Below are positions 13,141-32,157 of a stretch of DNA of 56,304 nt, in pieces. Source of the stretch: an uncultured Flavobacteriaceae bacterium (GTDB lineage: Bacteria; Bacteroidota; Bacteroidia; Flavobacteriales; Flavobacteriaceae); the NCBI GenBank assembly GCA_905479745.1, contig CAJQNO010000043.1:1-56304 (forward strand), in the 5' to 3' direction. The notes under the pieces were generated by a model. It was not told the DNA's origin, did no database searches, and was given only the letters and a program-made list of their open reading frames with translations. Every line of letters begins with the position of its first letter. The stretch's first letter is position 1. The translations under genes were made by a program, and so were the position numbers.

Positions 13141-13152
13141 AATACTTCGTCT

Positions 13153-14778: not shown

Positions 14779-14804
14779 ACTTTTAACTGTGTTCTTGTAG
14801 ATCT

Positions 14805-16223
14805 CTATTCAATCACTCTCACCTCAACGCGTCTGTTAAGTGCTTTACCAGCATCGGTTTCGTTGCTTGCTACAGGGCTGTATTCTCCTTTGCCATCGGC
14901 CAAGATATAAGTGATGTCTATGCCCTCTTTTTTTAACCAGGATCTTACAGACTTCGCTCTTCGGCGGGAAAGGTCCTCGTTATAAGCCGCATCTCCTTCC
15001 GAATCGGTATGACCAATGATCTCGATCTTTATTTCTGCATTATTCCTTAGGAATCCTGCAAGTTCTTTTAAAACAGGCTCAGACCCGGCTTTTGGAATAT
15101 CCTTACCCGAATCGAATAATATGCCATACAGATTTACATAGCCTTTTTCCTTAATTTCATCACTTACGTAATTTTCGTTCTCGGCTTCTTTCTCTTTAAG
15201 GACCAGTGTTACTTGTTTATTCTCTTCACGCATTAATTCGGAGGCTTTACTGGTTTGCTGATAACCAGATTTATTTGCAGAGACAACAATCATACCTACG
15301 GGCACTTCATTCAATACGAAAGTACCATCTGCTGCTGTGAGTGTTTGAACTAGGCCATTGGCAGATACTAATACCCCTTCAAGGAGATTGCCCTGTTCAT
15401 CCTTAACGATTCCACGAATGCTGCCATTGCACTTATATTCGGAGGTAGGATTTATAAGTAATTGAATAAAATCGATAGCAAATCCATCGCCAGCGTCGTT
15501 AATAGGATCGTCAATACTGATATTGATTGAACCAGAAGTGAACAGTTCAAAATCTTCTGGCAACATACCCACCTGTACTAGTTTTCCTGTAGGGCCGGAT
15601 TGATTCAGGTTATTGATCACCGACTCAACGTAGGTAAGTCGCTTTTCATTGATGTGGAACTGGAAGGAACTACCAAAGACAGGAGATTGAAAATCATCCA
15701 GCATCATCTGTAAAACCACTTCTTTTATTTCAATTGCCGGAGGGTCATAATTCATTTCAATAGGAACCGGATCTGTATGTGCCCGAAGGGTATAGGAGGT
15801 ATATCCATCGCTACGTGCTCTTTTATAAGCACTAACCACCATGATGCGGTCGGTTCCTTCGTGATCTGTAGAGTCTACCTCCCACGGATATCGGTGTATC
15901 GATGTATTCTGTCCACAGAATGGATCGAAACCGGGGTCCCAGCCAAACCCTAAATTGTCCACATCACCAACGCGAACTTGTATGGCGGCTTTATCGCCTT
16001 CGGTAGTATAAAAATACTGATCGGATACTATTGTATCTGTTTCGCTCGTTTTTACAGTGTCATTTTCAATAATATTTTCTGTTTCGGAAACCACTTCCTC
16101 TTTTAGGGGAATCGTCTCCTCAGGTAGAACTTCCGGAGTTTTTTCTTCCGCATTTTTACATGAGAAATTAAGTGTAAAAAGAAATATGATGGCCCAGCTA
16201 TACAGTAAATACTTCATTATCAT
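14805..16223 (-). CDS. OmpA-family lipoprotein with carboxypeptidase-regulatory-like domain
   Basis: A 472-residue envelope protein. A lipoprotein signal ends at LNFSCKNAEE. An acidic Thr/Glu-rich stretch follows, then a domain of about 220 residues with no clear name, a carboxypeptidase regulatory-like beta-sandwich (about 275-345: IRGIVKDEQGNLLEGVLVSA) and a C-terminal OmpA peptidoglycan-binding domain (LFDSGKDIPKAGSEPVLKEL, IEIIGHTDSEGDAAYN, LNRRVEVRV). It probably tethers the outer membrane to peptidoglycan. If the island at 16321-35459 is removed, this gene lies directly downstream of mnmE on the same strand. Confidence 0.88.
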   Translation of the reverse strand: MIMKYLLYSWAIIFLFTLNFSCKNAEEKTPEVLPEETIPLKEEVVSETENIIENDTVKTSETDTIVSDQYFYTTEGDKAAIQVRVGDVDNLGFGWDPGFDPFCGQNTSIHRYPWEVDSTDHEGTDRIMVVSAYKRARSDGYTSYTLRAHTDPVPIEMNYDPPAIEIKEVVLQMMLDDFQSPVFGSSFQFHINEKRLTYVESVINNLNQSGPTGKLVQVGMLPEDFELFTSGSINISIDDPINDAGDGFAIDFIQLLINPTSEYKCNGSIRGIVKDEQGNLLEGVLVSANGLVQTLTAADGTFVLNEVPVGMIVVSANKSGYQQTSKASELMREENKQVTLVLKEKEAENENYVSDEIKEKGYVNLYGILFDSGKDIPKAGSEPVLKELAGFLRNNAEIKIEIIGHTDSEGDAAYNEDLSRRRAKSVRSWLKKEGIDITYILADGKGEYSPVASNETDAGKALNRRVEVRVIE

Positions 16224-16320
16224 TCGTTTATTCGAATTTAAGGATTTTACCTTTAATATCAGTGAGTTGAGTGTGATTCAATCAATACAATGAAAAGAAG
16301 TGAAGGAGGCACTGGGAATT

Positions 16321-16338
16321 TTACTTCCCAATACAAAA
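16321..16338 (-). repeat. att-like site, left end (copy of the mnmE 3' end)
   Basis: On the minus strand the 18 bases read TTTTGTATTGGGAAGTAA, which translate as Phe-Cys-Ile-Gly-Lys-stop, exactly the last residues of MnmE, with 14 of 18 bases shared with the real mnmE end. No MnmE coding sequence precedes it here. Direct repeats of a gene's 3' end at both island borders are the footprint of tyrosine-integrase insertion. As I recall, Salmonella island SGI1 uses the same gene end. Confidence 0.65.
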
Positions 16339-16375
16339 AGTAACAATATTTTATTTTACTGGGCTTGCAGACCTG

Positions 16376-16385
16376 TGAGACACAA
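16376..16385 (+). repeat. Integrase arm-type motif near the left end
   Basis: TGAGACACAA, identical to 35323-35332 near the right end. It is followed by CAAATGAGAAACAAAA, which resembles the CAAATGAAACCAAA motif at 35416-35429. It lies 38 bases inside the left att-like copy. Function as an integrase or excisionase site is inferred. Confidence 0.5.
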
Positions 16386-16547
16386 ATGAGAAACAAAACA
16401 AGATTTTTGCTTACTTCTTTACAATTATTGAAACAATATTAATAAATTTTATATCACTTGTTTTAAATTGATAAAGAATTATGTGCTTTTTATTTCGTCA
16501 AATATTAAAATAAATTTTTGTTATATTTCCAAAAACTTTGAAGGTGT

Positions 16548-17249
16548 ATGATAAATTTTCCATTAGTGGCCGGAACGCTCGCTTCAATGTTACATGTAAT
16601 TTCTGGGCCAGATCATTTGGCAGCCGTTACTCCTTTAGTAATTGAAACCAAAAGAAAAGCATGGAGAATAGGCTTATTTTGGGGACTTGGACACTTATTG
16701 GGGATGCTTTTAATTGGTGTTTTGTTTTTATTATTTAAAGATATAATCCCCGTTGAAAGTATTTCAGAATATAGTGAGCAATTGGTGGCTGCTGTGTTGA
16801 TTGGTGTCGGACTTTGGGCGTTTTATCGAATATTTAATCAAAAAAAGAAACACCTACATCCACATGTGCACCATGACACTGAAACCTATGTTCATATTCA
16901 CGAACACGAACATCATGATGAAGGGCATTACCATAAGCATGATAAAATTGTAAAACAGGATGTTCTATCTTCTTTTGGTATTGGATTTTTGCATGGATTA
17001 GCTGGTGTGGCCCATTTTTTATTATTGTTACCCGTGCTTGGCTTTCAAGATAACTCTGAAGGCATTCAGTATATTATTGGGTTCGCTATTGGTACGGTTC
17101 TGGCAATGTCCGTTTATGCCTTAATATTGGGTAAGATTACTTCTTTTTCTAAGCATCAACATAATGATAATTTTTTCAAAGGGATTCGCTTCGCAGGCGG
17201 GTTATTTGCAATAATCATTGGTATTTACTGGATGTATTTAAGTCTTTAA
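16548..17249 (+). CDS. UreH/NiCoT-like nickel transporter with His-rich loop
   Basis: A 233-residue inner-membrane protein with about six hydrophobic segments. The first carries LHVISGPDHLAAVTPL, a His...Asp-His arrangement like the metal-recognition motif of nickel/cobalt transporters and UreH-type proteins. A cytoplasmic or periplasmic loop (about residues 103-132) contains about fifteen His residues (HLHPHVHHD, HIHEHEHHDEGHYHKHD), well suited to binding nickel. A second pattern, GFLHGLAGVAHFLLLLPVLG, follows. It is the only plus-strand gene of the island and faces the hydrogenase cluster, overlapping the end of the NHL gene by 12 bases. Supplying nickel for the hydrogenase is the obvious role. 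Confidence 0.82.
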   Translation: MINFPLVAGTLASMLHVISGPDHLAAVTPLVIETKRKAWRIGLFWGLGHLLGMLLIGVLFLLFKDIIPVESISEYSEQLVAAVLIGVGLWAFYRIFNQKKKHLHPHVHHDTETYVHIHEHEHHDEGHYHKHDKIVKQDVLSSFGIGFLHGLAGVAHFLLLLPVLGFQDNSEGIQYIIGFAIGTVLAMSVYALILGKITSFSKHQHNDNFFKGIRFAGGLFAIIIGIYWMYLSL

Positions 17250-18332
17250 ATCGCAAATTATTACGCGATGGTTACCAGTATCTGCTATAAATAGTTTGTT
17301 TTCTTCCGTTGCAATTGAAAATGGCCAATAAATGGCGCTGCCTGTGCCGTGCATATTTTCTTTATACTCACTACTTGTATTAAAATCTGGCCTCCCAATT
17401 AGTGCATTGGCACTGGCATTGTTCTCTTTAGGAATACTTTTAAAGACTAAAATTCTACTATTACCTGTATCGTTCACCAAAATACCTTCTTTATAAAAAC
17501 AAGCGTCATACGTCCAATTTAAGGTATTCGCTTCTGGTGAAAGTCTAAACTGATTTTGTCCTGCATCATCAAAATTTTGTTGTCCTATGATTACATCAGC
17601 GGGTTTGTTAAACGCATCGTTTTTATCATTCCAAACTAAAACTCTATAAAACTGTGTGTCAGTAATGGCTAAATATCCCTTTTTGCTAATTTTAATTGAG
17701 TATGGCCAAATAGGATCATTATTTTCATAATCTCGGGTATTGAAATCTGACTTTCCAATGACATTGTCTGCATTAGCAAAGTTTTCCGTAGGAATTTTGT
17801 TAAAATACAACACACGACGGTTACCCGTATCGGCTATCCATAAGCTTACACCATCTGAAAAAACACCATAAGGCCAGTTCAAAGTATTAGCTTTAGGGTT
17901 TGCCGATTGCCCTTTTACATTGGGATAATTCGTTTCAAAACTGGCTTGTCCTAAAACAACATCTGCCGGTTGTGCATTCACTGTAGGAATGCTATGCCAA
18001 ATTAAAACACGATGATTCCAAGCGTCGGCAACAATCAGTTTTATACCATCGCTCCAAATTCCTGAAGGGTATTGCAATGTTTTCGAAGAGACTAAAGAAT
18101 CTGCATTTCTACCTGTGTCTTCAATACTTTCTTGCCCAAGAATAACATCTGGATTTTGAAATTCTGATGTAGGTATAGTTTTCCAAATAAAAACACGATT
18201 CCGTCCAGTGTCTGAAACAAAAAGCATATTATTAACTACAAACACGCCTCGTGGTGCTAAAAACGGTTTTTGTTTTGAACCTTTAAAAATATAAGCATTC
18301 GCGACGTTGCTACCTAAAGTAGTATAATCCAT
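17238..18332 (-). CDS. NHL-repeat six-bladed propeller protein, hydrogenase-associated
   Basis: A 364-residue protein made almost wholly of six NHL repeats, each ending in a strand of the form ADTxNxRVLxW...IP (VSDTGRNRVFIWKTIP, VADAWNHRVLIWHSIP, IADTGNRRVLYFNKIP, ITDTQFYRVLVW, VNDTGNSRILVFKSIP, IADTGNHRVIICD) and separated by GQxxF segments. There is no signal peptide, so it should be cytoplasmic. It is the last gene of the hyp operon, 3 bases after hypE. NHL proteins occur in other group-2a hydrogenase clusters as far as I recall; the role is unknown and assembly or scaffolding is a reasonable guess. Confidence 0.82.
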   Translation of the reverse strand: MDYTTLGSNVANAYIFKGSKQKPFLAPRGVFVVNNMLFVSDTGRNRVFIWKTIPTSEFQNPDVILGQESIEDTGRNADSLVSSKTLQYPSGIWSDGIKLIVADAWNHRVLIWHSIPTVNAQPADVVLGQASFETNYPNVKGQSANPKANTLNWPYGVFSDGVSLWIADTGNRRVLYFNKIPTENFANADNVIGKSDFNTRDYENNDPIWPYSIKISKKGYLAITDTQFYRVLVWNDKNDAFNKPADVIIGQQNFDDAGQNQFRLSPEANTLNWTYDACFYKEGILVNDTGNSRILVFKSIPKENNASANALIGRPDFNTSSEYKENMHGTGSAIYWPFSIATEENKLFIADTGNHRVIICDLKT

Positions 18333-18335
18333 AGG

Positions 18336-19397
18336 TTAACAGATTCTTGGCAATTGTTCTCCAGGAAGCATGCTTACCATGCGTTTACCACCAATGGCGC
18401 TCTCCAAAATCACTTGTTTTGGGTGTGCTTCAACAATGGTTCCTATAATTTTCGCATTGGTACCATTTTCGTCGTTTTGTAAGGTTGCTACAAACGAATC
18501 GGCTATAGAAGCATCTACAAAGCTTAAAAACAATCCTTCATTCGCCACATATAATGGATCTAACCCTAATAATTCGCAGGCACTTGCTACCTGACTATCT
18601 ATTGGCAAATCTTTCTGAAAAATATCAATTCCAATATTAGAGGACAAAGCAATTTCTTTTAAAACCGTGGCTATACCACCTCTCGTGGGATCAGTTAATA
18701 AATGAATGTCTTCTCCAAACGCATCTATCAGTTTTAAAATAGTATGATTCAAATTTGTGGTATCGCTTTCAATGGTGGAATCGAATTCTAATCCTTCTCG
18801 AACAGACATAATTGCCATACCGTGCGTTGCTATGTTACCACTAACGATGATTTTATCTCCAATTTTAATATTCTTTTCATTGATATGTGCTTTTGGATGG
18901 ATGTTGCCAACACCAGAAGTATTTATAAATATTTTATCGCCTTTACCTTTTTCAACTACTTTAGTATCACCGGTAACTACATTTACGTTTGCTTTCTCGC
19001 AAGCATACTTGATAGCTACTAAAATCTCCCAAAACTGTGTCATTTTCAGGCCTTCTTCAATAATAAAACTTAAGGATAGATACTTAGGAATAGCACCGCA
19101 CATGGCTAAATCGTTTACAGTGCCATTAACAGCCAGTTCACCAATATTTCCTCCGGGGAAAAATATAGGGGACACTAAAAAACTATCGGTTGAGAATGCC
19201 ATCTTGCCATTCATTTCGAGAAACGCACCATCATGTCGTTCATTGAGTATATCATTGCTTAACACATCAAAAACGCCGCTGTCAAGTAGTTTATTGGTTA
19301 AAGTACCACCGCTACCATGCCCAAGAGTTATGACATCAAAATCTAATTTTGGCATGGGGCATTGCAGCTGCATTCGTATTTTTTTTGAATCAGACAT
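18336..19397 (-). CDS. hypE: Hydrogenase maturation protein HypE
   Basis: HypE (353 residues) dehydrates the thiocarboxamide on its own C-terminal Cys to a thiocyanate, the source of the CN ligands of the active-site iron. Seen here are the PurM-like ATP-binding parts (ITLGHGSGGTLTNKLL, AFSTDSFLVSPIFFPGG, NVVTGDTKVVEKGKGD, LTDPTRGGIATVLKEIA) and the conserved C-terminus PRIC, with the acceptor Cys as last residue. It works with HypF (carbamoyl donor) and HypCD. The N-terminus could start a few residues later. It lies 20 bases after hypD. Confidence 0.96.
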   Translation of the reverse strand: MSDSKKIRMQLQCPMPKLDFDVITLGHGSGGTLTNKLLDSGVFDVLSNDILNERHDGAFLEMNGKMAFSTDSFLVSPIFFPGGNIGELAVNGTVNDLAMCGAIPKYLSLSFIIEEGLKMTQFWEILVAIKYACEKANVNVVTGDTKVVEKGKGDKIFINTSGVGNIHPKAHINEKNIKIGDKIIVSGNIATHGMAIMSVREGLEFDSTIESDTTNLNHTILKLIDAFGEDIHLLTDPTRGGIATVLKEIALSSNIGIDIFQKDLPIDSQVASACELLGLDPLYVANEGLFLSFVDASIADSFVATLQNDENGTNAKIIGTIVEAHPKQVILESAIGGKRMVSMLPGEQLPRIC

Positions 19398-19417
19398 TTA
19401 TTATTGATTATTGTAGA

Positions 19418-20512
19418 TTAAGCTTCGATTAAGCCAGAAAAATGGTAATAGGCCGCACAAGCACCCTCACTACTTACCATAGGAGCTCCTAATGGAAAGG
19501 ACGGTTTACATTTCTTACCAAATTGTGGGCATTCAAAAGGTTTTTTGATGCCTTTCATAATTTGTCCTGAAATACAATCGGGATGTTCTGGGGCTTCTTC
19601 TATTGAAATACTAAACTTTTTGTTGGCATCAAAGGCGGCATATTTTTCTTTAACGGCATAACCGCTTTCAGGAATTTCGCCAATACCTCGCCATAGCTGA
19701 TTCCTAATTTCAAAAACTTCAAAAATCATTTTTTGAGCTTCGGTATTACCTTCCTCTTTCACAATTCTTGAATATTGATTCTCGACTTTAGCTTTATTTG
19801 CTTCTAACTGACGAATTACCATCAAGATACCTTGCAAGACATCCAAAGGTTCAAAACCAGTAACTACGATTGGTACATTGTAAGTTGCCGAAAGGGGATG
19901 ATACTCTGAATTGCCCATAATGGTACATACATGCCCAGCGGCTAAAAAGCCATCAATATTACTTTCGTCATCATCAATTACCGCTTTTATAGCTGGTGGT
20001 ACTAATACATGAGATGCTAAAATGGAATAATTAGTCAAACCTTTTCGGTGCGCATGGATAAGAGATAAGGCATTTGCTGGTGCGGTAGTTTCGAATCCTA
20101 CAGCAAAAAAAACAACTTCTCTGTCTGGATTCGCTTCTGCAATCTTTACAGCTTCTAATGGTGAATATAAAATGCGAATATCGGCACCTTTGGCTTTGGC
20201 TTCCAAAAGATTAATTTTTGAGCCAGGAACGCGCAACATATCTCCAAACGAACATAAAATCACACCCTCATTGAGCGCCAAATGAATGGCTTTATCTATT
20301 AAATTTAACGGTGTTACACAGACAGGGCAGCCTGGACCATGAATCATGGTGACTTGTTCTGGCAACATGTCTATGATACCATTTTTAACCAAACTATGTG
20401 TTTGCCCGCCGCAAACTTCCATTATAGCCCAAGGTTGCGTTACCGTTTTTTCTATTTCTTCGAGATACTTCTTTGCTAATTCAGGATCTCTATATTCATT
20501 CATATACTTCAT
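19418..20512 (-). CDS. hypD: Hydrogenase maturation protein HypD
   Basis: HypD (364 residues) is the Fe-S scaffold on which, with HypC, the Fe(CN)2CO unit is assembled. Conserved Cys motifs are visible: MEVCGGQTHS, HGPGCPVCVTP, AAGHVCTIMG and the C-terminal cluster ligands (DCISGQIMKG, ECPQFGKKCKPSFPLGAPM, SSEGACAAYY). The conserved FFAVGFETTAP stretch is also present. The gene overlaps the end of hypC by 4 bases, which fits equimolar HypC/HypD. Met-1 and Met-4 are both possible starts. Confidence 0.96.
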   Translation of the reverse strand: MKYMNEYRDPELAKKYLEEIEKTVTQPWAIMEVCGGQTHSLVKNGIIDMLPEQVTMIHGPGCPVCVTPLNLIDKAIHLALNEGVILCSFGDMLRVPGSKINLLEAKAKGADIRILYSPLEAVKIAEANPDREVVFFAVGFETTAPANALSLIHAHRKGLTNYSILASHVLVPPAIKAVIDDDESNIDGFLAAGHVCTIMGNSEYHPLSATYNVPIVVTGFEPLDVLQGILMVIRQLEANKAKVENQYSRIVKEEGNTEAQKMIFEVFEIRNQLWRGIGEIPESGYAVKEKYAAFDANKKFSISIEEAPEHPDCISGQIMKGIKKPFECPQFGKKCKPSFPLGAPMVSSEGACAAYYHFSGLIEA

Positions 20513-20790
20513 GACTCATCTTTTTTAGGCAAATAATCGTCAACATCTTCAAGTTCGCCTAATTCGCCAATTTCTTCTAAATATTCAAACGTTTTTTTAG
20601 CTTCTTCTTCGTTAACTTTACTTATAGCAACCCCAACATGCACTAGAACATAATCGTCAACATCGGCATCTGGTAGCATTTCTAAACTGGCTTCTTTCGT
20701 GATTCCACCAAATGAAACCTTTGCCATTCTCACCAAACCGTTATGTTGTAATTCTATACTTTTAATTTTCCCTGGAATTGCTAAACACAT
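20509..20790 (-). CDS. hypC: Hydrogenase maturation chaperone HypC
   Basis: A 93-residue chaperone that binds HypD and the precursor of the large subunit. The N-terminus MCLAIPGKI is diagnostic: the essential Cys-2 is exposed once Met is removed. The small OB-like barrel continues (MAKVSFGGITKEASLEMLP, YVLVHVGVAISKV), and an acidic C-terminal helix and tail (EELGELEDVDDYLPKKDES-like) extends slightly beyond the usual length. It is coupled to hypD by a 4-base overlap. Confidence 0.96.
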   Translation of the reverse strand: MCLAIPGKIKSIELQHNGLVRMAKVSFGGITKEASLEMLPDADVDDYVLVHVGVAISKVNEEEAKKTFEYLEEIGELGELEDVDDYLPKKDES

Positions 20791-20795
20791 AGTAC

Positions 20796-23054
20796 TTAAT
20801 TTTTTATATGTTGATGGTACATCAACTGTCCGAATGATATATTTTCGTCGTTAGCAGACAATTTACAATTTAATTTTAAATTTATTTTATCTTTTTTTGC
20901 CATCAGAGAAAGCATTGAAACTAATAGCGCGTTTTGAAAAACACCACCACTACAGGCAATCATGTTTATTTGATTCTTTTTAGCAACCCTTATAATGGAT
21001 TTAGCTAAAGTGTAGATAAAACTATAAGCCAATCGTTCTTTACAAAATCCTTCTCTATAGGCTTTTATAAGTTTTTTAAGAATATACTGGGATGGTATTT
21101 CATTATAAGTTGTATCATGTAAAAAATCAATATAATAGCTTTTAGAGTATGTGTTTGCACAATCTTCAAGTCGCATGGCTGCTTCAGCTTCAAAAGTATT
21201 TATATCTACTAAGTCTAATGCCGAAGCTGCTGCATCAAACAACCTACCAACAGAGGATGTTTTAAGCTTGTTGGTTTTTATAGTTTTTGAATAGATTTTC
21301 CATTCGGTTTCGGTAAACTTATCTTTAATGAAAGGCTTCGTTTCATCATCTAATAGACTAAATAAAGCTAAACGTGGCTCTTTAGCCATTTTGTCGTTAG
21401 TCAACCAATCGAAATATTCAAAATGTGTTAAGCGTTCAATTTTATAATTTTCGTAAGTAAAAAATTCACCTCCCCAAATCTGATTGTCATCACCTAAACC
21501 TGTACCATCCCAAATCACACCTAGTATTTTGTCTTTGCAATTAAACAAATCATGTTCTCCTAAAACACTTGCAAAATGTGCTTTATGATGCTGAATTTCT
21601 TGAATAGCAGCGTTGTATGTTGAAACCAGTTCGTGCCCTAAAACGCTGCTTTGGTATTGTGGGTGTTTGTCAATAAGAATTGTTTTTGGAGTGGTGTCGA
21701 AAACATCAAAGTAATTTTCAATTATAGTGTTATAACGTTTTAAAACATCGTAATTATCTAAATTTCCGAAATATTGACTCACGTATGTTTGTGCATTGGG
21801 CACAAATGTAAAGGTGCTTTTTAAATGCGCTCCCATTGCCAAAATAGGCTTGGTATCGTTTATTTTAACATCGATATAATTCGGTGCCAACCCTCTAGAG
21901 CGTCTATAGATAAGCTTTTTGTTATATCCAAATTTGATAACAGAATCGTCTTGCGGAAATTGAATATCGAGATTGTGATGCAAGAAATAATCAGCAACAT
22001 TTTTTAAGTGTGTATGCGCTTCTTTTTCTTCAGAAATAATAGGCGAACCATGTATATTCCCACTCGTGGCAACAATGGGCTGTTTAATTTCTTGCATTAT
22101 TAATTGCAACAATGCAGAAAACGGTAGCATCACACCTGTTTGGTTTAAATTTGGTGCGATGGTATTGACAGCGATACTTGTATTTTTAGTGTTTTGCAGG
22201 ATCACTATGGGTGCTACTCTAGATTGTAAAGCTTCTTCTTCGTGAGATGATAATTGAAACTCTTTCTTTGCGGTTCTAATTGAAGGATACAATACTGCAA
22301 AAGGCTTATTGGGCCTTTTCTTTCGCGCTCTTAACTCTTTGATGGCTTCTGGATTTAAAGCATCACAGCACAATAGGTAACCATTGGTGTTTTTAATAGC
22401 AACAATTTTTCCATCAGAAATACATTGGCCAACTTTTTTAATACAATCAATTTGATTTTCTGCAATCGTTTTTTCATCCGTTGCTACCAATCTTAATTGT
22501 ATGCCACATGAACTACATGAGTTAGTTTGCGAATGAAACCGTCTGTCGTTTGGATTAATATACTCTGCATGGCAAGCCTCACACATGTCAAACTCTGTTA
22601 ACGACGTATGTGCTCTTTCAAATGGAAACTTGGTTGTAATGGCATAGCGTGGTCCACACTGTACACAGGTTGTAAATGGATAATTATAGCGCCTGTTTTT
22701 AGAGTCTGAAAGTTCGGTTTTACAGGACTCGCAAATTGCAAAATCTGGTGTTAATGGTACATTGATTTGTGCCTGTGTTTTTGATGAAATAATGGTAAAA
22801 TTGTTAAATTCAGTAAACGGACTTCCAACAATTTTACAGGAAGTTATAATGGCTATTTCTGGTTTGTGAAGCAGAATGTCTTCTGAAAATCTATCGACAC
22901 CTTCTTTAGAAGTATTACAATAAATAAGAACACCATTTTCATTGTTTGAAACAGTACCATTTAACTTATGTTTTTTCGCAAGATTAAAAACAAAAGGACG
23001 AAATCCAACACCTTGAACCTGTCCTTCAATTTGTATTTGAAATGTTTTACTCAC
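20796..23054 (-). CDS. hypF: Carbamoyltransferase HypF
   Basis: HypF (752 residues) makes carbamoyl-adenylate from carbamoyl phosphate and ATP and transfers the carbamoyl group to HypE. Domains in order: acylphosphatase (residues about 5-90, GQVQGVGFRPFVFNLAKK), two zinc-finger pairs (CESCKTEL, CVQCGPRY, CEACHAEY, CSSCGI), a YrdC-like nucleotide-binding domain (about 195-375, RKKRPNKPFAVLYP, VATSGNIHGSP), and a Kae1-like domain (about 380-750, QHHKAHFASVLGEH, GVIWDGTGLGDD, IACSGGVFQNALL). All parts are complete. It lies between hypC and hypB with short gaps. Confidence 0.96.
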   Translation of the reverse strand: MSKTFQIQIEGQVQGVGFRPFVFNLAKKHKLNGTVSNNENGVLIYCNTSKEGVDRFSEDILLHKPEIAIITSCKIVGSPFTEFNNFTIISSKTQAQINVPLTPDFAICESCKTELSDSKNRRYNYPFTTCVQCGPRYAITTKFPFERAHTSLTEFDMCEACHAEYINPNDRRFHSQTNSCSSCGIQLRLVATDEKTIAENQIDCIKKVGQCISDGKIVAIKNTNGYLLCCDALNPEAIKELRARKKRPNKPFAVLYPSIRTAKKEFQLSSHEEEALQSRVAPIVILQNTKNTSIAVNTIAPNLNQTGVMLPFSALLQLIMQEIKQPIVATSGNIHGSPIISEEKEAHTHLKNVADYFLHHNLDIQFPQDDSVIKFGYNKKLIYRRSRGLAPNYIDVKINDTKPILAMGAHLKSTFTFVPNAQTYVSQYFGNLDNYDVLKRYNTIIENYFDVFDTTPKTILIDKHPQYQSSVLGHELVSTYNAAIQEIQHHKAHFASVLGEHDLFNCKDKILGVIWDGTGLGDDNQIWGGEFFTYENYKIERLTHFEYFDWLTNDKMAKEPRLALFSLLDDETKPFIKDKFTETEWKIYSKTIKTNKLKTSSVGRLFDAAASALDLVDINTFEAEAAMRLEDCANTYSKSYYIDFLHDTTYNEIPSQYILKKLIKAYREGFCKERLAYSFIYTLAKSIIRVAKKNQINMIACSGGVFQNALLVSMLSLMAKKDKINLKLNCKLSANDENISFGQLMYHQHIKN

Positions 23055-23066
23055 TAAAATAAAACA

Positions 23067-23768
23067 TTAAGTTTGCTGCTTTTGTTTAACTTTTTGTACT
23101 AACCAATCACACCATTCGTCTATGCCTTCTTCAGATAAAGACGAAATTTGTAACACTTCTAATTCGTGATTAACTTCTCTTGCATCTTTAGTCACTGCTT
23201 CTACAGAGAAGGGTAAATAAGGTAGCAAATCAGCTTTAGAAACGAGCATCATATCGCTTGTTAAAAACATGCGTGGATACTTTTTTGGTTTATCATCACC
23301 TTCGGTAGTAGCCATTAAAGTAACACGGTAATCCTCACCTAAATCAAAAGAAGCAGGGCACACCAAGTTTCCTACATTTTCAATAAAAAGCAGATCGATA
23401 TTTGGTAAATCAAACTGATCTAACACCTGATGAATCATTTGGGCTTCCAAATGACAAATACCTCCAGTTACGATTTGCAATGCAAAAATGCCCGTTTCTC
23501 TTATGCGCTCAGCATCACGCTCGGTTTCCAAATCACCCACCATAACGGCCATATTTAGCTTGTCTTTTAGCTTTTCTGCTGTTTTTTGCATCAGCGTAGT
23601 TTTTCCGCTTCCGGCTGAGGACGTTATATTAACCAACAGCGTGTTGCTTTTTGCCATTTCCTTTTTGATAATATCGGCTACAAAATCATTAGCCTTTAGC
23701 AAATTGATATTGGTATTCTCGCATTGTGCAGTTCCGCGAGCCGCTTTTGTGGATTTCTCTATACTCAT
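23067..23768 (-). CDS. hypB: Hydrogenase nickel-incorporation GTPase HypB
   Basis: HypB (233 residues from ATG at 23768) is the GTPase that, with HypA, inserts nickel. The P-loop is TSSAGSGKTTL, switch/base motifs include DLETERDAERI and ENVGNLVCPASFDLGE, and the metal site at the dimer interface is in TGGICHLEAQM. The N-terminus lacks both the His-rich nickel store and the CxxCGC motif known from other HypB proteins; only one Cys is found there, so nickel storage may fall to the His-rich transporter loop. An upstream in-frame GTG at 23801 is possible but less likely. HypA ends 35 bases upstream. Confidence 0.94.
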   Translation of the reverse strand: MSIEKSTKAARGTAQCENTNINLLKANDFVADIIKKEMAKSNTLLVNITSSAGSGKTTLMQKTAEKLKDKLNMAVMVGDLETERDAERIRETGIFALQIVTGGICHLEAQMIHQVLDQFDLPNIDLLFIENVGNLVCPASFDLGEDYRVTLMATTEGDDKPKKYPRMFLTSDMMLVSKADLLPYLPFSVEAVTKDAREVNHELEVLQISSLSEEGIDEWCDWLVQKVKQKQQT

Positions 23769-23803
23769 AATTGTATTGTTTAATTGGTACTTTTTATGCA
23801 CAT

Positions 23804-24151
23804 TTAATCGTCAAATTCTACTTTATGGATTAACATTTCTTCACCTTGAATCACATTTTTACTGGGCCTTTCACAATTATCACAGATAAATCGATAGTTT
23901 TTAACATCTGTGATATGGTTGCACACCTCGCACTGAATTTTTAGTTCAGTTGACTCTATATGAAGCACTACATGATGATAGCCTGGATTCGTAATATGGT
24001 AAGCACTGTAGGCATTGTGCAACAATCGAGGTTCAATGTTCGATAAGATGCCAACTTTAAGGTGAATGGCTTTCATCTTATTCAATTTTTCTTGTTCAAA
24101 CTCCATTTCTAAAGTTCGCATAATGCTATTAACGATGGATGTTTCGTGCAT
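23804..24151 (-). CDS. hypA: Nickel metallochaperone HypA
   Basis: A 115-residue nickel chaperone. The N-terminal MHE motif (Ni ligand His-2) is intact, and the zinc finger has two CxxC pairs (CEVCNHITDV and CDNCERP) separated by about 14 residues. The body contains the conserved IHLKVGILSNIEPRLLHNAY. It delivers nickel to the large subunit together with HypB, encoded just downstream. It starts 2 bases after the TPR gene ends. Confidence 0.96.
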   Translation of the reverse strand: MHETSIVNSIMRTLEMEFEQEKLNKMKAIHLKVGILSNIEPRLLHNAYSAYHITNPGYHHVVLHIESTELKIQCEVCNHITDVKNYRFICDNCERPSKNVIQGEEMLIHKVEFDD

Positions 24152-24153
24152 GG

Positions 24154-25635
24154 TTAATTCAGTATGGTTTTTAAATTTTTTAAAGCTTCTATGTGTTCAT
24201 TTGCCTTTTCTATTAAAGCACTGTCGGTAACCAATTGCGATATTTCATTCGCTTTATTGAGCATCGCATTGTATTTTTTGGCTTCTTCTTCACTGTTTTC
24301 ATTATGCATGACCCAGTAGAGCTCTAATTGGTTTACTAAAGTCAAAGCGCGCTCAAAAGGATAGCTAGCTGCTGTTCTAACACTCAAAGCATCTTCAAAC
24401 ATACCAAAGGCTTTATCTAAATTGTTGTGCAATTTGGCTACAGGAAAACTCATTAAAGCAGTAGCATAATTATGACTTGCCATGGCAAACTCGTAAGGAT
24501 AATCTTCTTTGGTGTAAAACTTCAATACTTCCTTAAATGATGAGGCGCAAAAGGCTGTCCAAATAGGTTTTTCTTCTGAAGATACAGGGATTTCCGAATA
24601 GATCAACGCTAAATTATGATGCACATGTGCAAACTTTTGAGGATGTGTCTCTCGCTTAAAGACTTTTAACGTGTCCTGAAAGGCATTTATAGCAGGTTTG
24701 TAATATTGCGGGCTTCCGTTTTTACTCCAGGTATAAAGTAGCGTGGCTTTCCGCAAACCTGCTTCCCCTAAAAATTCTGGAATATCAGCTTCTTTGAAAA
24801 TTAAAATGGCTTTGTTTATGTAATCCTTCGAAGCAATATAATCTTTCTGATAGTTTGCAATTTCTGAGGCATCCACATACAATAAGCCTGCGTTTACATT
24901 TTGATTTCTTGTCTCATAAAAATGAATACCTTCTTGAAATAATTCTGAAATTTCATCTAAAGTATCGTTTTCATAAGGTAGTTGTAATTGCGCCATGAGT
25001 GCTGATGCCAATTGAATTTGCATCGCATTTTTTGATTCGGGCGAGATGGCTTTGTCCTGTAGCGAACGTACCAACTCCTCTGCTTCCTGATAGGCATTTA
25101 CATCTAAAAGCAAGTTACTGTAATGTTTCGCGATAAACACCTTTAATTCATCATGAATCTCCGTATCTATGGCTTTAGCATACATTTTTTTTAAGGTTTC
25201 AACAGTACAGCGATTAGAGTATTGTCCATAATGCTGAACGATACTTTGATTAGCTAAAGTGTCTATTTTAGAAAACATCGCATCAGAAATATCGTAACCA
25301 AACTGTAGATGTGTAGCGACTAAAAGATCATTATATATACTGTTACCTTCTGAAACAAATTCAAATACTTTCTGCTGGTTTCCTAATTTATAAAAGATAA
25401 TCGCCAAAAGATTATTGGCGTTAAAAGTAATTTCTGGAAATATATAAGGTGGTTCTGTGTCGTACCAATCGAGTGACGCTCGGATAATGTCATTTTCAAC
25501 TGTCAGCAATTTAGAGGTAGGATCAATTTCTTCTGGATGACTCACAACAGCAACTAACTCGTCCAAACGATCAACTACCATAATTACCTCGCGAATGGAT
25601 TCTTTAAAATTAGTTGCTGTTAATATTGTAATCAT
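24154..25635 (-). CDS. TPR-like helical protein of the hydrogenase operon
   Basis: A 493-residue, wholly helical protein with repeated Ala/Tyr/Leu helix pairs resembling tetratricopeptide repeats (YQEAEELVRSLQDKA, FAHVHHNLALIYSEIP, FAMASHNYATALMSFP, FERALTLVNQLELYW). It has no signal peptide or membrane segment, so it is cytoplasmic. It overlaps the preceding 88-residue gene by 26 bases and is followed 2 bases later by hypA, so it is firmly within the operon. A role as adaptor or assembly factor for the hydrogenase is inferred; TPR proteins are known from some other group-2a clusters, as far as I recall. Confidence 0.75.
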   Translation of the reverse strand: MITILTATNFKESIREVIMVVDRLDELVAVVSHPEEIDPTSKLLTVENDIIRASLDWYDTEPPYIFPEITFNANNLLAIIFYKLGNQQKVFEFVSEGNSIYNDLLVATHLQFGYDISDAMFSKIDTLANQSIVQHYGQYSNRCTVETLKKMYAKAIDTEIHDELKVFIAKHYSNLLLDVNAYQEAEELVRSLQDKAISPESKNAMQIQLASALMAQLQLPYENDTLDEISELFQEGIHFYETRNQNVNAGLLYVDASEIANYQKDYIASKDYINKAILIFKEADIPEFLGEAGLRKATLLYTWSKNGSPQYYKPAINAFQDTLKVFKRETHPQKFAHVHHNLALIYSEIPVSSEEKPIWTAFCASSFKEVLKFYTKEDYPYEFAMASHNYATALMSFPVAKLHNNLDKAFGMFEDALSVRTAASYPFERALTLVNQLELYWVMHNENSEEEAKKYNAMLNKANEISQLVTDSALIEKANEHIEALKNLKTILN

Positions 25636-25876
25636 CTTTGTTTACTTTTTGTGTTCCTCTAATATCCTTTGCGGCTGTTTGTTGCATATTTCTAGCATAC
25701 ACTTCTGCCAAACGCTTCGATCTGTAATCGCCTATTTTTTTGATTAATATATGTTTAGGATCCTTAGTATCGATAAATACTAATGATACTTCCCAACGGC
25801 TATTTATTTCTTCAATCTTATATTGTACTTCGGCATCTAATAACCATGCATCTTTTGGATCATTACGTTTTGTCAT
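25610..25876 (-). CDS. Small hydrogenase-operon protein, unknown (88 residues)
   Basis: A soluble, highly charged 88-residue protein without Cys, signal peptide or membrane segment. It shows alternating beta-like stretches (YKIEEINSRWEVSLVFID, HILIKKIGDY) and a helix (SKRLAEVYARNMQQTAA). I do not recognise it. Its first codon shares a base with the stop of the 105-residue gene and its end overlaps the TPR gene, so it is translationally coupled on both sides. That makes a structural or assembly role with the hydrogenase likely. It is not an Fe-S protein, because it has no Cys. Confidence 0.7.
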   Translation of the reverse strand: MTKRNDPKDAWLLDAEVQYKIEEINSRWEVSLVFIDTKDPKHILIKKIGDYRSKRLAEVYARNMQQTAAKDIRGTQKVNKDDYNINSN

Positions 25877-26193
25877 TACATATTGACTTTTATAAGATTT
25901 GTTTTTTCCACTATTTCATACTCAAGTACTCTATCAGTCATATTTATATCATTATCGATTAAAATTTCTCGAATTGCTAATGTTCTATCGCCTTTTAGGT
26001 TTCTAGATTTTAATAAAAACTGAGTTGGTTTGTACATCTTCACAAACCATTGACTACTTACGGGTGTTATGAGTAGTCTTTCTTGAGATTTTACATACGT
26101 AACATAGGCATAATGAATATTTTTAAAAATGTTCTCTACCAGTTCACTATCTAAAAAAATATGAGATGACTTTAATGCTACTTTTTCGTTCAC
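25876..26193 (-). CDS. Small hydrogenase-operon protein, unknown (105 residues)
   Basis: A soluble 105-residue protein with no Cys, signal peptide or membrane helix. The middle is basic (FVKMYKPTQFLLKSRNLKGD) and the end beta-like (RVLEYEIVEKTNLIKVNM). I do not recognise the family. It overlaps the protease gene by 4 bases and abuts the 88-residue gene, so the three are coupled. Conservation in other group-2a hydrogenase clusters would decide whether it is a dedicated subunit. Confidence 0.7.
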   Translation of the reverse strand: MNEKVALKSSHIFLDSELVENIFKNIHYAYVTYVKSQERLLITPVSSQWFVKMYKPTQFLLKSRNLKGDRTLAIREILIDNDINMTDRVLEYEIVEKTNLIKVNM

Positions 26194-26669
26194 AATACTT
26201 CTGAAACTTTTAATTCTTCTAGTATATGTTCAACGACTTTATCTCCTGCATCTTTAACTGCATCACTTAATTCTACTTCTAACTTCGTATTTTCTATGGC
26301 AATTAAATACACCTGAATATCGTCTGGATACTCGTCTTGTAAAATCTTTTTAGCGTACGACAATGCTTGATCCCATTTCATACCATGCAAAAACACCAAA
26401 GGATCATCTTGTGGTGCTCTCAAAACTTCTTCGGCAGGAACTTTAAAAAGTGTTCCTACAGGTTCATTGGTATTTAAAGCTGCATCTACCAGTATAATTT
26501 TTTGATGCCCTTTTAATCCAAAAAGGACTTCAAAAGCCGCTGTTCCCATATCAAAAATATTGATGGCCTCATTATCACCAATATGCTCCTTGAGTTTTTC
26601 AATGACATACATTCCAACACCATCATCACTTCTTACAGGGTTTCCGAAACCCATGATTGCAATTTGCAT
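26190..26669 (-). CDS. Hydrogenase maturation protease (HyaD/HupW type)
   Basis: A 159-residue endopeptidase of the HybD/HyaD fold that removes the C-terminal tail of the large subunit once nickel is in place. The N-terminal MGFGNPVRSDDGVGMYV carries the nickel-sensing acidic residue (in the DDG), a second Asp is in IFDMGTAAFEVLF, and the His ligand is in VFLHGMKWDQ. Its presence agrees with the large subunit having a 15-residue tail after its last metal-binding His. It is separated from the large-subunit gene by a strong stem-loop. Confidence 0.92.
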   Translation of the reverse strand: MQIAIMGFGNPVRSDDGVGMYVIEKLKEHIGDNEAINIFDMGTAAFEVLFGLKGHQKIILVDAALNTNEPVGTLFKVPAEEVLRAPQDDPLVFLHGMKWDQALSYAKKILQDEYPDDIQVYLIAIENTKLEVELSDAVKDAGDKVVEHILEELKVSEVL

Positions 26670-26689
26670 ATTAATATATTTAAAATTAA

Positions 26690-26723
26690 AAAACTTTCTT
26701 AAGTGCTACCTTAAGAAAGTTTT
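26690..26723 (-). terminator. Strong intra-operon stem-loop between the large-subunit and protease genes
   Basis: AAAACTTTCTTAAG (26690-26703) and its perfect complement (26710-26723) form a 14-bp stem with a 6-base loop. On the transcribed minus strand it is followed by a T-rich run. It looks like an intrinsic terminator or RNA-processing site inside the operon, likely to allow much more structural-subunit mRNA than accessory mRNA. Partial read-through would be needed for the hyp genes unless they have another promoter. Confidence 0.8.
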
Positions 26724-26748
26724 ATGTAACTATCTTATATTGTGCCTG

Positions 26749-28341
26749 TTACAACTTGAATTTCGATAATTCGACACCACTTTTTTCATCATGAGCATGT
26801 ACAGTACATACTAAACACGAATCAAAAGAACGGGCTACAATACCCACTTCAACAGGATCAGCTGGATCTTCAATTTCTATGCCGGTTAAAGCACTTTCAA
26901 TTGGTCCAGGATTTCCATTAGCATCGTTAGGCCCTACGTTCCAAGTGGTTGGTGCCATAACCTGATAATTTTTAATAACACCATCTTTTATTTCTATCCA
27001 ATGAGCTAAAGCACCTCGAGCTGCTTCGGTAGCACCAAAGCCTTTTCCATCTTTTTCAATAGGTTTGTTATAAAACACACCATCAAGGTCTATTTCTGAT
27101 AACCATTGCTCGATAAATTTATAGATTCTAGGAGCTTCATGTACACGTGCCAATACACGTGTAAATACACTAGGTCCTAATTTTTTGATAATATCTCCGA
27201 ATAAAGGATCTCTAATTTGATGTTCTTTATTGTTAGGGTTTGCATTCATCACACAGCGAGCAAGTGGCCCTGTTTCGCATGCATGGCCATCATACCTTGG
27301 TGATTTAGCCCAAGAGTATTGTCCATCAAAATTTGTATCATGTAATACTTGAGATTTTGCGGGTGTTGGTAACGGCTCATCCCACGGATGTAAACCATCT
27401 TCCTGATTATCATACCAAGAGTGCTTAACGTGCTCACTCACTTTTAAATGATCAAACTCATGCCAATTTTCTCCATCAAAGAATCCGCTTGAGCTTATTA
27501 AAGCATCGTTTCTTCCTTCAATAGTAGGATTATTATACATATCTTTATGTAAGTATGTTCCTGTTGCCAAGAACTTGCCAACGCCTTGACCAAATTTATC
27601 TAATCCAAATTCAATACCAGCTCTGATTAATAATCCTAAGTCACTATTTTTATGCGACTCATTTTCTTCTACCCAAGCTAGCATGTCGTCCCACGACTTT
27701 ATTTTCATGTATCGCTCAATAGAACAACCTAGCCAAATAGGTTCTAACCAATCATTTTTAAATTGCGCTAAAATAGCATGTGCTCTTGTAATATCTTTTA
27801 GAGTAGGCGCACACATTACACCTCCAGGTACCATATAGCTTGAGTGTGGCCATTGACCACCAAACAACGCATAAATCTGTACAGGAAGGGCACTCGCTGT
27901 TAGCCCTTTTTGAAAGGTTTCTCCTACATATGCTGACCAACGTTTTACAACCTCTTTATACAGGGGTTTATTGGCATATTTTTTATTAGCTAAATCTGTA
28001 GCAAAAATGGCATAATACCATCTCGGAATACTTTGAAGAGTTTCAGAAGCCTGTCCTATTGCTCTTAACAATAAAGCATTAGGTGACAGTTTAGTTCCCC
28101 ATGCAGTATCAAGAGCAGATGATGCGCAATACAGATGTGATCCTCCACAAATACCACAAATTCGAGGCGTTACAATTAAACCTGACTGTGGATCTTTACC
28201 CGCCATAATTTTCTCAAACCCTCGAAACATTGCTGCTTGGGTATGTGCTCGAGTTACTTTACCATTATCTATGTACACCTTAACATCTAAATCGCCTTCA
28301 ACGCGACCTACAGGTGAAATATTTAATTCTTTTACTGACAT
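26749..28341 (-). CDS. hupL: [NiFe] uptake hydrogenase large subunit, group 2a-like
   Basis: The catalytic subunit (530 residues) that oxidises H2 at a Ni-Fe(CN)2CO site. The N-terminal metal-binding motif is RICGICGGSHLYC and the C-terminal one DSCLVCTVH, so all four Cys ligands are present; Ser replaces the usual Pro after Asp. A 15-residue tail follows the last His and would be cut by the protease encoded next. The proteins resemble cyanobacterial HupL and the group-2a class rather than membrane-bound group-1 enzymes. The start (MSVKELNISPVGRVEGD) is standard. It follows the small-subunit gene by 18 bases. Confidence 0.94.
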   Translation of the reverse strand: MSVKELNISPVGRVEGDLDVKVYIDNGKVTRAHTQAAMFRGFEKIMAGKDPQSGLIVTPRICGICGGSHLYCASSALDTAWGTKLSPNALLLRAIGQASETLQSIPRWYYAIFATDLANKKYANKPLYKEVVKRWSAYVGETFQKGLTASALPVQIYALFGGQWPHSSYMVPGGVMCAPTLKDITRAHAILAQFKNDWLEPIWLGCSIERYMKIKSWDDMLAWVEENESHKNSDLGLLIRAGIEFGLDKFGQGVGKFLATGTYLHKDMYNNPTIEGRNDALISSSGFFDGENWHEFDHLKVSEHVKHSWYDNQEDGLHPWDEPLPTPAKSQVLHDTNFDGQYSWAKSPRYDGHACETGPLARCVMNANPNNKEHQIRDPLFGDIIKKLGPSVFTRVLARVHEAPRIYKFIEQWLSEIDLDGVFYNKPIEKDGKGFGATEAARGALAHWIEIKDGVIKNYQVMAPTTWNVGPNDANGNPGPIESALTGIEIEDPADPVEVGIVARSFDSCLVCTVHAHDEKSGVELSKFKL

Positions 28342-28359
28342 TTCTATAGTTTTAATTGG

Positions 28360-29319
28360 TTACTTCGAAGCTTCCATTACTCTACGGTTCTTAGGCATAA
28401 CTTTTTGGAAGCCAGCTTCCATATAATATGCTAATTTTGTTCTGCCGTGAGGTACTTCTTTAGGCAAAACACCTAGGTACTTCATAGTATTGAATACACT
28501 TCCTTTCTTAAGATCATGATGAGGGAAACCTGGTTCAGTGCACCCTAAACATGGATGATTTGAACGTGTTTTGCTTGATTGTCTGTTCCACAATATGTTG
28601 TTACAACTTGCCCTAGTCATTGGTCCTCTACATCCTACTTCATAGAACAGGCAACCACCACGTTTACCAAAGTTCCCATCTACTTTTTGAGCAAAATTGG
28701 TTACATTAGTACAACCATCCTGAACAAAATCTGTAAAGAATGTTTTTGGTCTATGATAATCATCAATTACAACATCACCAATACGACCAACAGCAATTGC
28801 TACCAGTATTTGGGTAATCCAATCTGGATGTGCAGGACAACCAGGTATATTGATTACTGGCAAACCACCTTTAGAAACATAGTTAGCGCCTAAAAAACCT
28901 CCTTTATTTTTTTTGTGAAACTGCAAACCAGTAGATTCACTCGGGTTAGGTGGTACAGCAGGAATTCCTCCCCATGTAGCACAATCTCCTATGGCAACAA
29001 CATAGCCAGCTACTTCAGATAATTCTTTAATCCAATCTTTCATTGGGCGGTCAGCAAAATAATTCATTGATCCTGTTCCATTTGGTCCTTGAATTAATGA
29101 ACCTTCATAAACAAGAATATCCATTTGCTCTTTACCTGCAATAATATCTCTTAGTAAATCCTGTACTTGGTCACCAATTTGCAATCCAGTGGTTGGATGC
29201 CAAAGTATATTTAGACCAAAATCAGTGATGAGCTCTACAACGGTTGGTTCTTCCGCGTTAAGAAAAGACATAGTGTTACCACTACATGCTCCCCCTTGTA
29301 ACCATAAAACGTTTGCCAT
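28360..29319 (-). CDS. hupS: [NiFe] uptake hydrogenase small subunit, group 2a-like, no Tat signal
   Basis: The electron-transferring Fe-S subunit (319 residues). It begins directly with the mature fold (MANVLWLQGGACSGNTMSF), so there is no Tat signal peptide and the enzyme should stay in the cytoplasm, as in cyanobacterial HupS and other group-2 enzymes. Cys ligands for three clusters are visible: GACSG, GDCATWGG, IPGCPAHP, then CLFYEVGCRGP, ASCNN and CLGCTEP. Long stretches look close to cyanobacterial HupS. The C-terminus lacks the membrane anchor of group-1 small subunits. It is the first gene of the operon; the promoter must lie in the 217 bases upstream, near the middle att-like copy. 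Confidence 0.95.
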   Translation of the reverse strand: MANVLWLQGGACSGNTMSFLNAEEPTVVELITDFGLNILWHPTTGLQIGDQVQDLLRDIIAGKEQMDILVYEGSLIQGPNGTGSMNYFADRPMKDWIKELSEVAGYVVAIGDCATWGGIPAVPPNPSESTGLQFHKKNKGGFLGANYVSKGGLPVINIPGCPAHPDWITQILVAIAVGRIGDVVIDDYHRPKTFFTDFVQDGCTNVTNFAQKVDGNFGKRGGCLFYEVGCRGPMTRASCNNILWNRQSSKTRSNHPCLGCTEPGFPHHDLKKGSVFNTMKYLGVLPKEVPHGRTKLAYYMEAGFQKVMPKNRRVMEASK

Positions 29320-29428
29320 AGTAATTAAAGGTTAGTTAAAAAATTTATGGATTAAATATAGTAATTTAAAATTAATTGATTTAATATTAATAATTTATTA
29401 AAATATTGATATCATAATTATGAATAAA

Positions 29429-29446
29429 TCATTTTCCTATAAAAAA
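29429..29446 (-). repeat. Degenerate att-like copy of the mnmE 3' end (middle)
   Basis: On the minus strand the sequence reads TTTTTTATAGGAAAATGA (Phe-Phe-Ile-Gly-Lys-stop). It shares 14 of 18 bases with the real mnmE end, and 17 of 20 over 29431-29450 against 35444-35463. It divides the hydrogenase operon from the mobilization genes. It lacks the TGAGACACAA arm motif seen at the two outer copies, so it may be a relic of an earlier insertion, a secondary site or chance. Confidence 0.45.
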
Positions 29447-29535
29447 GTTTAGCCAGAAAAAGAAAATTGCACTTGGTAATTGATACTTAATATTTTGGCA
29501 ATCAAAAATTATATAAGTAATGAAAATACTTTATC

Positions 29536-29931
29536 TTAGAAAGAAATAACCTTTTCAATTTGATTTATGCCTCTGAATTTTTCTAAGGTCGTTTTAGTTT
29601 TAGAAGCATATACTAATGATACTACTGAAATAAGGATTGCAATAATAAAAATAATAACTGCCCATTTAGGATATACTCCAGCTTTTTTAAACAAGGTTTC
29701 AAATCTTCTGTATTGCCTTTCTTGTAGTTCACTTTGCCTTTTAAGTTGATTGTTATAAGTCTCCAAGAGTGATTTTATTTCTGACAAATCAATAGCCACC
29801 TTTGTATTTTGGATTTGATCATTAATAATTTCCAGTCTGCTTACGTCACTACGGAATTCTTCCATTTCAGAAGTTAACAATTCCATATATTCTTTAGCTC
29901 TAGTCATATTTTTAATCTTTTTAAATTCCAA
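29536..29931 (-). CDS. Coiled-coil single-pass membrane protein of the mob module
   Basis: A 131-residue protein: a long N-terminal coiled coil (about 10-80, rich in Glu, Gln and Leu; SLLETYNNQLKRQSELQERQ), one transmembrane helix (WAVIIFIIAILISVVSLVYA) and a short basic tail. The gene overlaps the end of the relaxase gene by 11 bases, so it is translationally coupled to it. Flavobacterial mobilizable elements often carry such a gene after the relaxase. A membrane anchor for the relaxosome or for contact with a helper coupling protein is plausible but inferred. The start could be Met-9. Confidence 0.7.
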   Translation of the reverse strand: MEFKKIKNMTRAKEYMELLTSEMEEFRSDVSRLEIINDQIQNTKVAIDLSEIKSLLETYNNQLKRQSELQERQYRRFETLFKKAGVYPKWAVIIFIIAILISVVSLVYASKTKTTLEKFRGINQIEKVISF

Positions 29932-32123: not shown

Positions 32124-32157
32124 GAGCTCTTCATTTTTTAGAACATTTTTGATGATT

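Follow-up and report, generated by a model that had tools for sequence, protein, structure and literature searches.

A hydrogenase-bearing 19-kb element at mnmE in a Flavobacteriaceae bacterium is most probably one mobilizable unit

How many mobile units lie beside a gene whose end seems to occur three times? The question is raised by a stretch of 56,304 bp (hereafter the window), which is the entire contig C43 of a 3.1-Mb draft genome of an uncultured Flavobacteriaceae bacterium. Its mnmE gene, an open reading frame (ORF) for the host tRNA-modification GTPase MnmE, lies on the minus strand at 35442-36866. Sequences resembling the last 18 bases of this gene occur, likewise on the minus strand, at 35442-35459 (the right core TTTTGTATCGGAAAATAG, which is the real mnmE end and lies next to an integrase gene), at 16321-16338 (the distal, left core TTTTGTATTGGGAAGTAA) and at 29429-29446 (the middle sequence TTTTTTATAGGAAAATGA, to be read as F-F-I-G-K-stop). 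All three stand where an earlier note on this DNA had placed them, and the middle one reads as it had claimed. The note asked whether the interval is one island or two in tandem, and ORFs and protein family matches bear out its division into a hydrogenase part of about 13 kb and a mobilization part of about 6 kb. The answer proposed here is that 16331-35450 is one integrative mobilizable element (IME) and that the middle sequence is not an end; we put the probability of this reading at about 0.92. Of the three supposed copies of the mnmE end, the two outer ones are genuine, while the middle one is a look-alike.

The borders of the unit can be read from a genome of another genus (G118), a single contig of 3.1 Mb that has the island at its own mnmE. 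The integrase and the large hydrogenase subunit are both 100% identical in the two hosts. The gapless alignment with the window comprises 19,334 bp and contains 55 mismatches. Three mismatches lie inside the left core, 52 from position 35451 on and none in between; therefore 16331-35450 is identical over 19,120 of 19,120 bases, including the first part of the right core (35442-35450). Identity ends inside both outer cores, the flanking alignments being at 67-72% and the two MnmE proteins 67.5% identical. The hosts differ at positions 9, 12 and 15 of the left core and at positions 3, 6 and 9 of the right core, which places the strand exchange between core positions 6 and 12. Such identity across genera points to transfer of the whole unit.

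The empty site was found in the window's own genus, of which seven genomes, including the window's own, were searched. All seven have mnmE (one of them partially), and two, the window's own and the complete genome G198, have the gene that lies to the left of the island. In G198, the MnmE of which is 97.9% identical, this gene directly adjoins mnmE. The mnmE end there, TTTTGTATTGGGAAGTAA, equals the left copy of the window in 18 of 18 bases, and the left copy therefore matches the original gene end of the host, core positions 9-18 being the displaced part. It also follows from this comparison that the right copy is a hybrid, the last bases of which arrived with the element. On either side of the island the alignment with G198 continues, at 92.0% identity over 35443-54769 and at 83.0% over 14638-16346.

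A third host was found in a wider survey. The family set consists of 397 genomes, the window's own included; 80 of these have a relative of the integrase (E value of 1e-50 or better) and 15 the large hydrogenase subunit. In a scan of named genomes, 80 loci were kept from 122 confirmed integrase relatives; these loci span at most 10 kb beyond the integrase, so that cargo farther off would escape. Mobilization backbone and hydrogenase occur together in one of the 80, that of Allomuricauda profundi BC31-3-A3. An alignment of 19,391 columns shows 87.3% identity between its orthologous island and the window; the island has a core at each end, and the MnmE of this host is 63.5% identical to that of the window and 66.6% to that of G118. 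The counterpart of the middle sequence is CTTTTTATGGGAAAATGA, which differs from the mnmE pattern by three mismatches and lacks one base that is present in the window. The two middle 18-mers are identical in 16 of 17 bases with one gap, and their immediate 50-base flanks are about equally alike (90% and 92%).

The position of the distal end is also indicated by arm-type repeats. At the integrase end these lie within 35295-35375 (GAGACACAA at 35295 on the minus and at 35324 on the plus strand, AAGACACAA at 35367 on the plus strand). A pair on the minus strand at 16377-16397, TTTGTTTCTCA and TTTGTGTCTCA, starts 59 and 48 bases inside the left core. When TTTGTGTCTCA was searched with up to two mismatches in the 130 bases inside the distal core of 13 relatives, A. 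profundi among them, one or two repeats were found in a similar place, 47-59 bases inside the core, in six of them, as at the left end of the window. The same search found no arm repeat at the middle copy, near 29.4 kb, in agreement with the earlier note. Therefore, the distal end used by the integrase is at 16.3 kb and not at 29.4 kb. It could be imagined that the middle sequence is nevertheless a working site from which the 6-kb and 13-kb pieces leave alone. Apart from the resemblance of the 18 bases nothing speaks for such a pair of separately mobile units, to which we give next to no probability: the 19-kb unit is whole in both G118 and A. profundi, there are no arms at the middle, the 13-kb half shows no integrase, and the middle of A. 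profundi has drifted by three mismatches and a deleted base. A working attachment site at the middle was rejected on these grounds.

The earlier note had also envisaged successive insertions at the same site, in which the hydrogenase part would have been trapped or else mobilised in trans. The data do not support this. The hydrogenase part shows no integrase, the arms at its distal end are of the kind found repeatedly with this integrase family, and the mobilization and hydrogenase parts are together in all three hosts in which the island was seen with hydrogenase cargo. The single 19-kb unit, which the note had favoured alongside an old, inactive junction, is strongly supported by the identity with G118, the island of A. 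profundi, the empty site in G198 and the distal arms. What a true tandem looks like in this family can be seen in Aquimarina sp. U1-2 (G402; L097 and L188-L190), where two different elements follow each other at mnmE. The first has its own integrase, 33% identical to that of the window; a perfect internal core, preceded by additional mnmE-end bases, lies 17.65 kb further on, and behind it stands a second integrase that is 80% identical to that of the window. The far end of the second unit was not found in the 60 kb read. As a side observation, the first element ends in a run of five genes, for proteins of 1433, 427, 212, 698 and 220 residues. At 29.4 kb in the window, no such arrangement of a complete internal core with one integrase per unit is found.

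Several observations weigh against a single unit, and most of them concern the middle sequence. It stands at the exact boundary of backbone and cargo, which is the expected place for the junction of a fused tandem. It has one mismatch to the pattern TTYTGYATHGGNAARTRR, and among 400 block-shuffled islands 1.0% have a site with at most one mismatch on the same strand and 2.0% have one on either strand; when the 216-bp intergenic stretch in which it lies is shuffled alone, a site with at most two mismatches occurs in 0.27% of 3,000 shuffles. Between the window and A. profundi, identity is 90.5% in the mobilization part against 86.3% in the hydrogenase part; moreover, the block that holds the middle, at about 28.7-29.6 kb, reaches 93-98% where its surroundings have 79-88%, so that something has kept or exchanged that stretch. 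The arm search was empty at the distal ends of seven of the 13 relatives, five of which have arms that appear diverged by eye and two of which (L168 and G373) are without. Finally, the window's genome (G000) is a draft in 215 contigs, and excision of the 19-kb unit is predicted from sequence.

The shuffle figures are all post hoc, the match patterns having been picked after the fact, and they vary with the pattern. To the pattern TTYTGYATYGGDAARTRR the middle has two mismatches; 0.84 such matches are expected per shuffled window and three are observed, a number reached in four of 100 shuffles. A site with at most two mismatches on the same strand is present in 25% of 150 block-shuffled islands, and one within three mismatches of three fixed cores in 8% of 150. 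The 216-bp stretch has a guanine-cytosine (GC) content of 16%. The middle match therefore appears somewhat unusual, rarer than chance without being compelling, and the comparative evidence decides the matter against a working site. True mnmE ends were read in 76 relatives: the Cys codon is TGT or TGC in 73 and the stop codon TAA or TAG in 73, the remaining three having AAG in place of the stop, which is taken for a one-codon offset and is probably a misreading. The middle sequence has TTT in place of the Cys codon and TGA in place of the stop. Furthermore, 34 loci were scanned over the 900 bases that follow the backbone, and none has an mnmE-like match with at most two mismatches there. For the earlier note, a middle sequence that is not conserved in related islands and clearly unrelated to mnmE would have counted as a refutation. 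This is half the case: the stretch of A. profundi is homologous, yet it is less mnmE-like, and the 34 loci lack such a match.

These data also bear on the possibility that a 6-kb mobilization element and a 13-kb hydrogenase element once stood in tandem at mnmE and now move jointly, the middle sequence being the decayed core. In its favour are the location and direction of the match, the low probability of such a match by chance (P about 0.01, post hoc), the real tandem array in Aquimarina and a mobilization backbone that occurs almost alone at mnmE (L161, described below). Nevertheless, this fusion has a slim chance: at the middle there are neither arms nor a second integrase, the 34 loci have no match within two mismatches, and both island lineages have TTT and TGA, unlike 73 of the 76 true ends, so that any relic would already have been broken in their common ancestor. 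The likeness of the middle sequence to mnmE is best put down to chance, or at most to a junction long dead, in an AT-rich stretch where the cargo starts.

The uneven identity with A. profundi deserves a closer description. An identity step at the middle copy was considered and rejected, since 100-base steps, which covered 16.3-17.6, 28.3-30.5 and 32.4-35.5 kb, show no break there. The difference between the mobilization and hydrogenase parts comes mostly from the integrase/HTH block. Three blocks are more alike, at about 33.4-35.4 kb, at the left end and at about 28.7-29.6 kb, and none of them starts or ends at the middle. As side observations, 33400-35441, 16339-16738 and 28700-29600 are 91-100% identical to A. 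profundi and the other stepped stretches 64-93%; the first two blocks neighbour each other across the joint of the predicted circle; and at four-fold sites the integrase is 86% and the HTH gene 93% alike, with 13 other tested genes at 38-72%. The high-identity blocks suggest recombination between islands. Off the island, A. profundi has a second hypE-like gene, L170 (G397:C6:20497-21507), which is 60% identical and possibly belongs to a second hydrogenase cluster.

An island that is identical in two genera might also be suspected to result from contamination or chimeric assembly, in which case the size of the unit could not be read from it. Zero differences over 19 kb are extreme, and the fragmented state of the window's assembly adds to the suspicion. 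Such an artefact is very improbable, however, because in each genome both mnmE and the displaced gene end are the host's own and meet the island exactly at the core borders, G118 is one contig, A. profundi independently has the same 19-kb unit, and the window's genus provides an empty site.

Among the relatives, backbone and cargo occur as distinguishable modules. The integrase lies 145-956 bp after mnmE in 75 of the 80 named relatives; no mnmE end was obtained for L094, L097, L128 and L158, and in L142 the integrase is 5.9 kb away. As an observation on its own, L158 combines an integrase 85% identical to that of the window with a perfect core at 9822 and no mnmE match upstream, which may represent a secondary site or a rearrangement. 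The NikA-like protein and the relaxase occur in 35 of the 80 loci. The earlier note had asked whether the 6-kb module exists alone at mnmE, and it nearly does: in L161, from an uncultured Flavobacteriaceae bacterium, a unit of about 7.8 kb (mnmE core at 9822, distal core at 17583) contains the seven backbone genes plus one ORF for 357 residues without a Pfam match. Regions of 40 kb were read for eight relatives, and four have a relaxase-bearing backbone with unrelated cargo: an ABC transporter in G145 (DUF5906 split into two ORFs), TerC and a potassium transporter in G133 (two backbone genes seen only in the locus reading and not in the 40-kb one), type I restriction in G021, and a type I methylase, ThiF and an IrrE-type peptidase in G245. 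No relaxase match was found in the 40-kb regions of G074, G212, G373 and G030, and no distal core with at most one mismatch in those of G133 and G030. Plasmid relatives of the integrase (six records) are distant, all being below 60% identity.

The hydrogenase block, for its part, was looked at in 13 other genomes and lacks this backbone in all 13, three of which have it on contigs shorter than 19 kb. A PF03432 relaxase is present in three of the 13, either on a different contig or at a distance of megabases. As to the question in the earlier note whether the block occurs with a different integrase, other tyrosine recombinases lie 8.4 and 10.4 kb away in two of the 13, G217 and G341; G050 has a sub-cutoff tyrosine recombinase fragment about 10 kb from the block, and further recombinases are at least 27 kb off or on other contigs. 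When 395 genomes of the order were queried with the mobilization/hydrogenase boundary region, nine matched: the window's own over the whole query, two over the hydrogenase half only and six over the mobilization half only. G118 is not among the nine and was presumably outside that draw. Two further arrangements may be mentioned. In G001 (L072/L073, joined coordinates 15890-32552) the hydrogenase block lies 1.7 kb from mnmE in opposite orientation, and neither a second core with at most two mismatches nor a relative of the window integrase was found in the 40 kb read. In G114, an HTH_17 relative (57%) stands at a contig edge, 3.4 kb from the block.

The backbone of the window consists of seven genes on the minus strand. 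These encode the tyrosine recombinase (34120-35280; PF13102, PF00589, PF17293), a small HTH_17 protein that is probably excisionase-like (33557-33838; PF12728), a DUF5906/VapE-like protein (32332-33537), a primase-like protein with CHC2 zinc finger and Toprim domains (31272-32123), a NikA-like mobilization protein (30781-31281; PF21983), a MobA/VirD2-type relaxase (29921-30784; PF03432) and, as the final backbone gene, a DUF6730 protein (29536-29931; PF20503). No family of the conjugation apparatus (type IV secretion) was found among 20 island proteins scanned, a scan in which the 105- and 493-residue proteins gave no family, ten cargo proteins were compared with NCBIfam only and the 88-residue ORF was left outside. 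The element has its own integrase, direct-repeat cores at both ends and relaxase and mobilization genes without a conjugation family among the scanned proteins, as expected for an IME.

The cargo appears to be a complete hydrogenase operon. The small subunit of a [NiFe]-hydrogenase (28360-29319, minus strand) and the large subunit (26749-28341, minus strand) have NCBIfam matches below the curated cut-offs. Among solved structures, the large subunit is closest to 7utd (7e-202) and 7uus chain E (5.4e-202), followed by 5jsu (1.8e-61). The title of the first two reads "Hydrogenase-2, large subunit", and we take them to be Huc of Mycobacterium smegmatis. By this comparison the subunit can be assigned to group 2a (Huc). 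Relatives of it occur on 17 plasmid records. The maturation and accessory genes (17238-26669, minus strand) comprise a protease gene (26190-26669, minus strand), ORFs for proteins of 105, 88 and 493 residues, hypA (below cut-off), hypB, hypF, hypC, hypD, hypE and a gene for an NHL-repeat protein. The final cargo gene, on the plus strand at 16548-17249, encodes a putative nickel/cobalt transporter on the basis of weak sub-cutoff NCBIfam matches; among 13 relatives, 12 have it beside the hydrogenase block, and in the remaining one the block lies on a 5.4-kb contig. According to PMC7784904, hucL loci come with NHL-repeat and maturation genes, and one clade is associated with Bacteroidota. Both kinds of gene are also present here, the difference being that they are inside a mobile element. 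Given the closest structures and the NHL-repeat gene, the cargo probably benefits its host through the uptake of trace hydrogen, provided that the enzyme is active.

A second insertion with respect to G198 lies outside the island, at 3413-14637 of the window (about 11.2 kb, low in GC). Its genes encode a TetR regulator, outer-membrane efflux and HlyD proteins, two ABC ATPases, two ABC-2 permeases and an Mrr-type nuclease, and no integrase was found among the ten proteins scanned.

On this basis, a mechanism can be proposed. The tyrosine recombinase would recombine an attachment core on the element with the final 18 bases of mnmE. By supplying its own FCIGK-stop end, the element would leave MnmE intact, and what had been the end of the gene would come to lie 19 kb away as the left copy. 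With the help of the small HTH protein and the arms, the integrase may excise a 19.1-kb circle between the outer copies; the relaxase and the NikA-like protein may then allow transfer through the conjugation apparatus of a helper element, and the circle would integrate at a new mnmE, again keeping the gene intact. The region between DUF6730 and the distal arms is the cargo slot, here filled with the Huc-type operon. The sequences themselves show the borders of the unit, the empty site, the complete unit in two further hosts, the recurrence of the distal arms and the backbone with cargo other than this one; excision, circle formation, conjugal transfer and hydrogen oxidation are all predicted from gene content and comparison. 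One may go further and picture a family of mnmE-targeting mobilizable elements in Flavobacteriaceae that shuttles physiological modules through this one slot and is now spreading trace-hydrogen oxidation between genera, the slot having been made or widened by a tandem fusion of which the middle sequence is the worn scar; taken as a whole, this picture has a slender chance at best.

The choice of target is reminiscent of SGI1, for which PMC2297512 describes insertion into the final 18 bases of thdF/trmE as well as tandem arrays; excerpts of the same paper and of PMC8409611 and PMC7449626 describe islands of the SGI1 type as having 18-bp flanking direct repeats and being mobilizable in trans. 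Integration in the last 18 bases of mnmE/trmE is likewise found here, a likeness in target site that is not taken as membership of the SGI1 type. The integrase is of the Phage_int_SAM_5/Arm-DNA-bind_5 type. In contrast to SGI1, the cargo is a hydrogenase instead of resistance genes, and the host is of another phylum, the named relatives being nearly all from Flavobacteriaceae. The combination of integrase, relaxase and accessory mobilization protein is shared with IMEs in general (PMC5704250, in part), and no match to a named IME family was found for this island. Hydrogen-oxidation gene sets on mobile DNA are known as well: partial texts report hydrogenase genes on the islands CMGI-2 and CMGI-3 of Cupriavidus metallidurans (PMC2864759) and on a plasmid of Sphingopyxis alaskensis (PMC10305171), and horizontal acquisition has been argued for Hydrogenovibrio (PMC6501319, excerpt). 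The former cases concern Tn4371-family islands or plasmids, whereas here the carrier is a 19-kb IME at mnmE, the borders and spread of which are readable from sequence. Among open-licence papers, as far as their accessible portions go, nothing relevant was found on a flavobacterial mnmE island or on a hydrogenase carried by one.

The question of one island or two in tandem is in effect settled by a natural experiment: one unit, with zero differences, in two genera. It is this identity of a hydrogenase-bearing element across genera that gives the locus its interest. In Flavobacteriaceae, a Huc-type hydrogenase gene set seems to exist as a compact mobile trait, which bears on the spread of trace-hydrogen use, and this compact packaging makes hydrogen uptake testable in culture.

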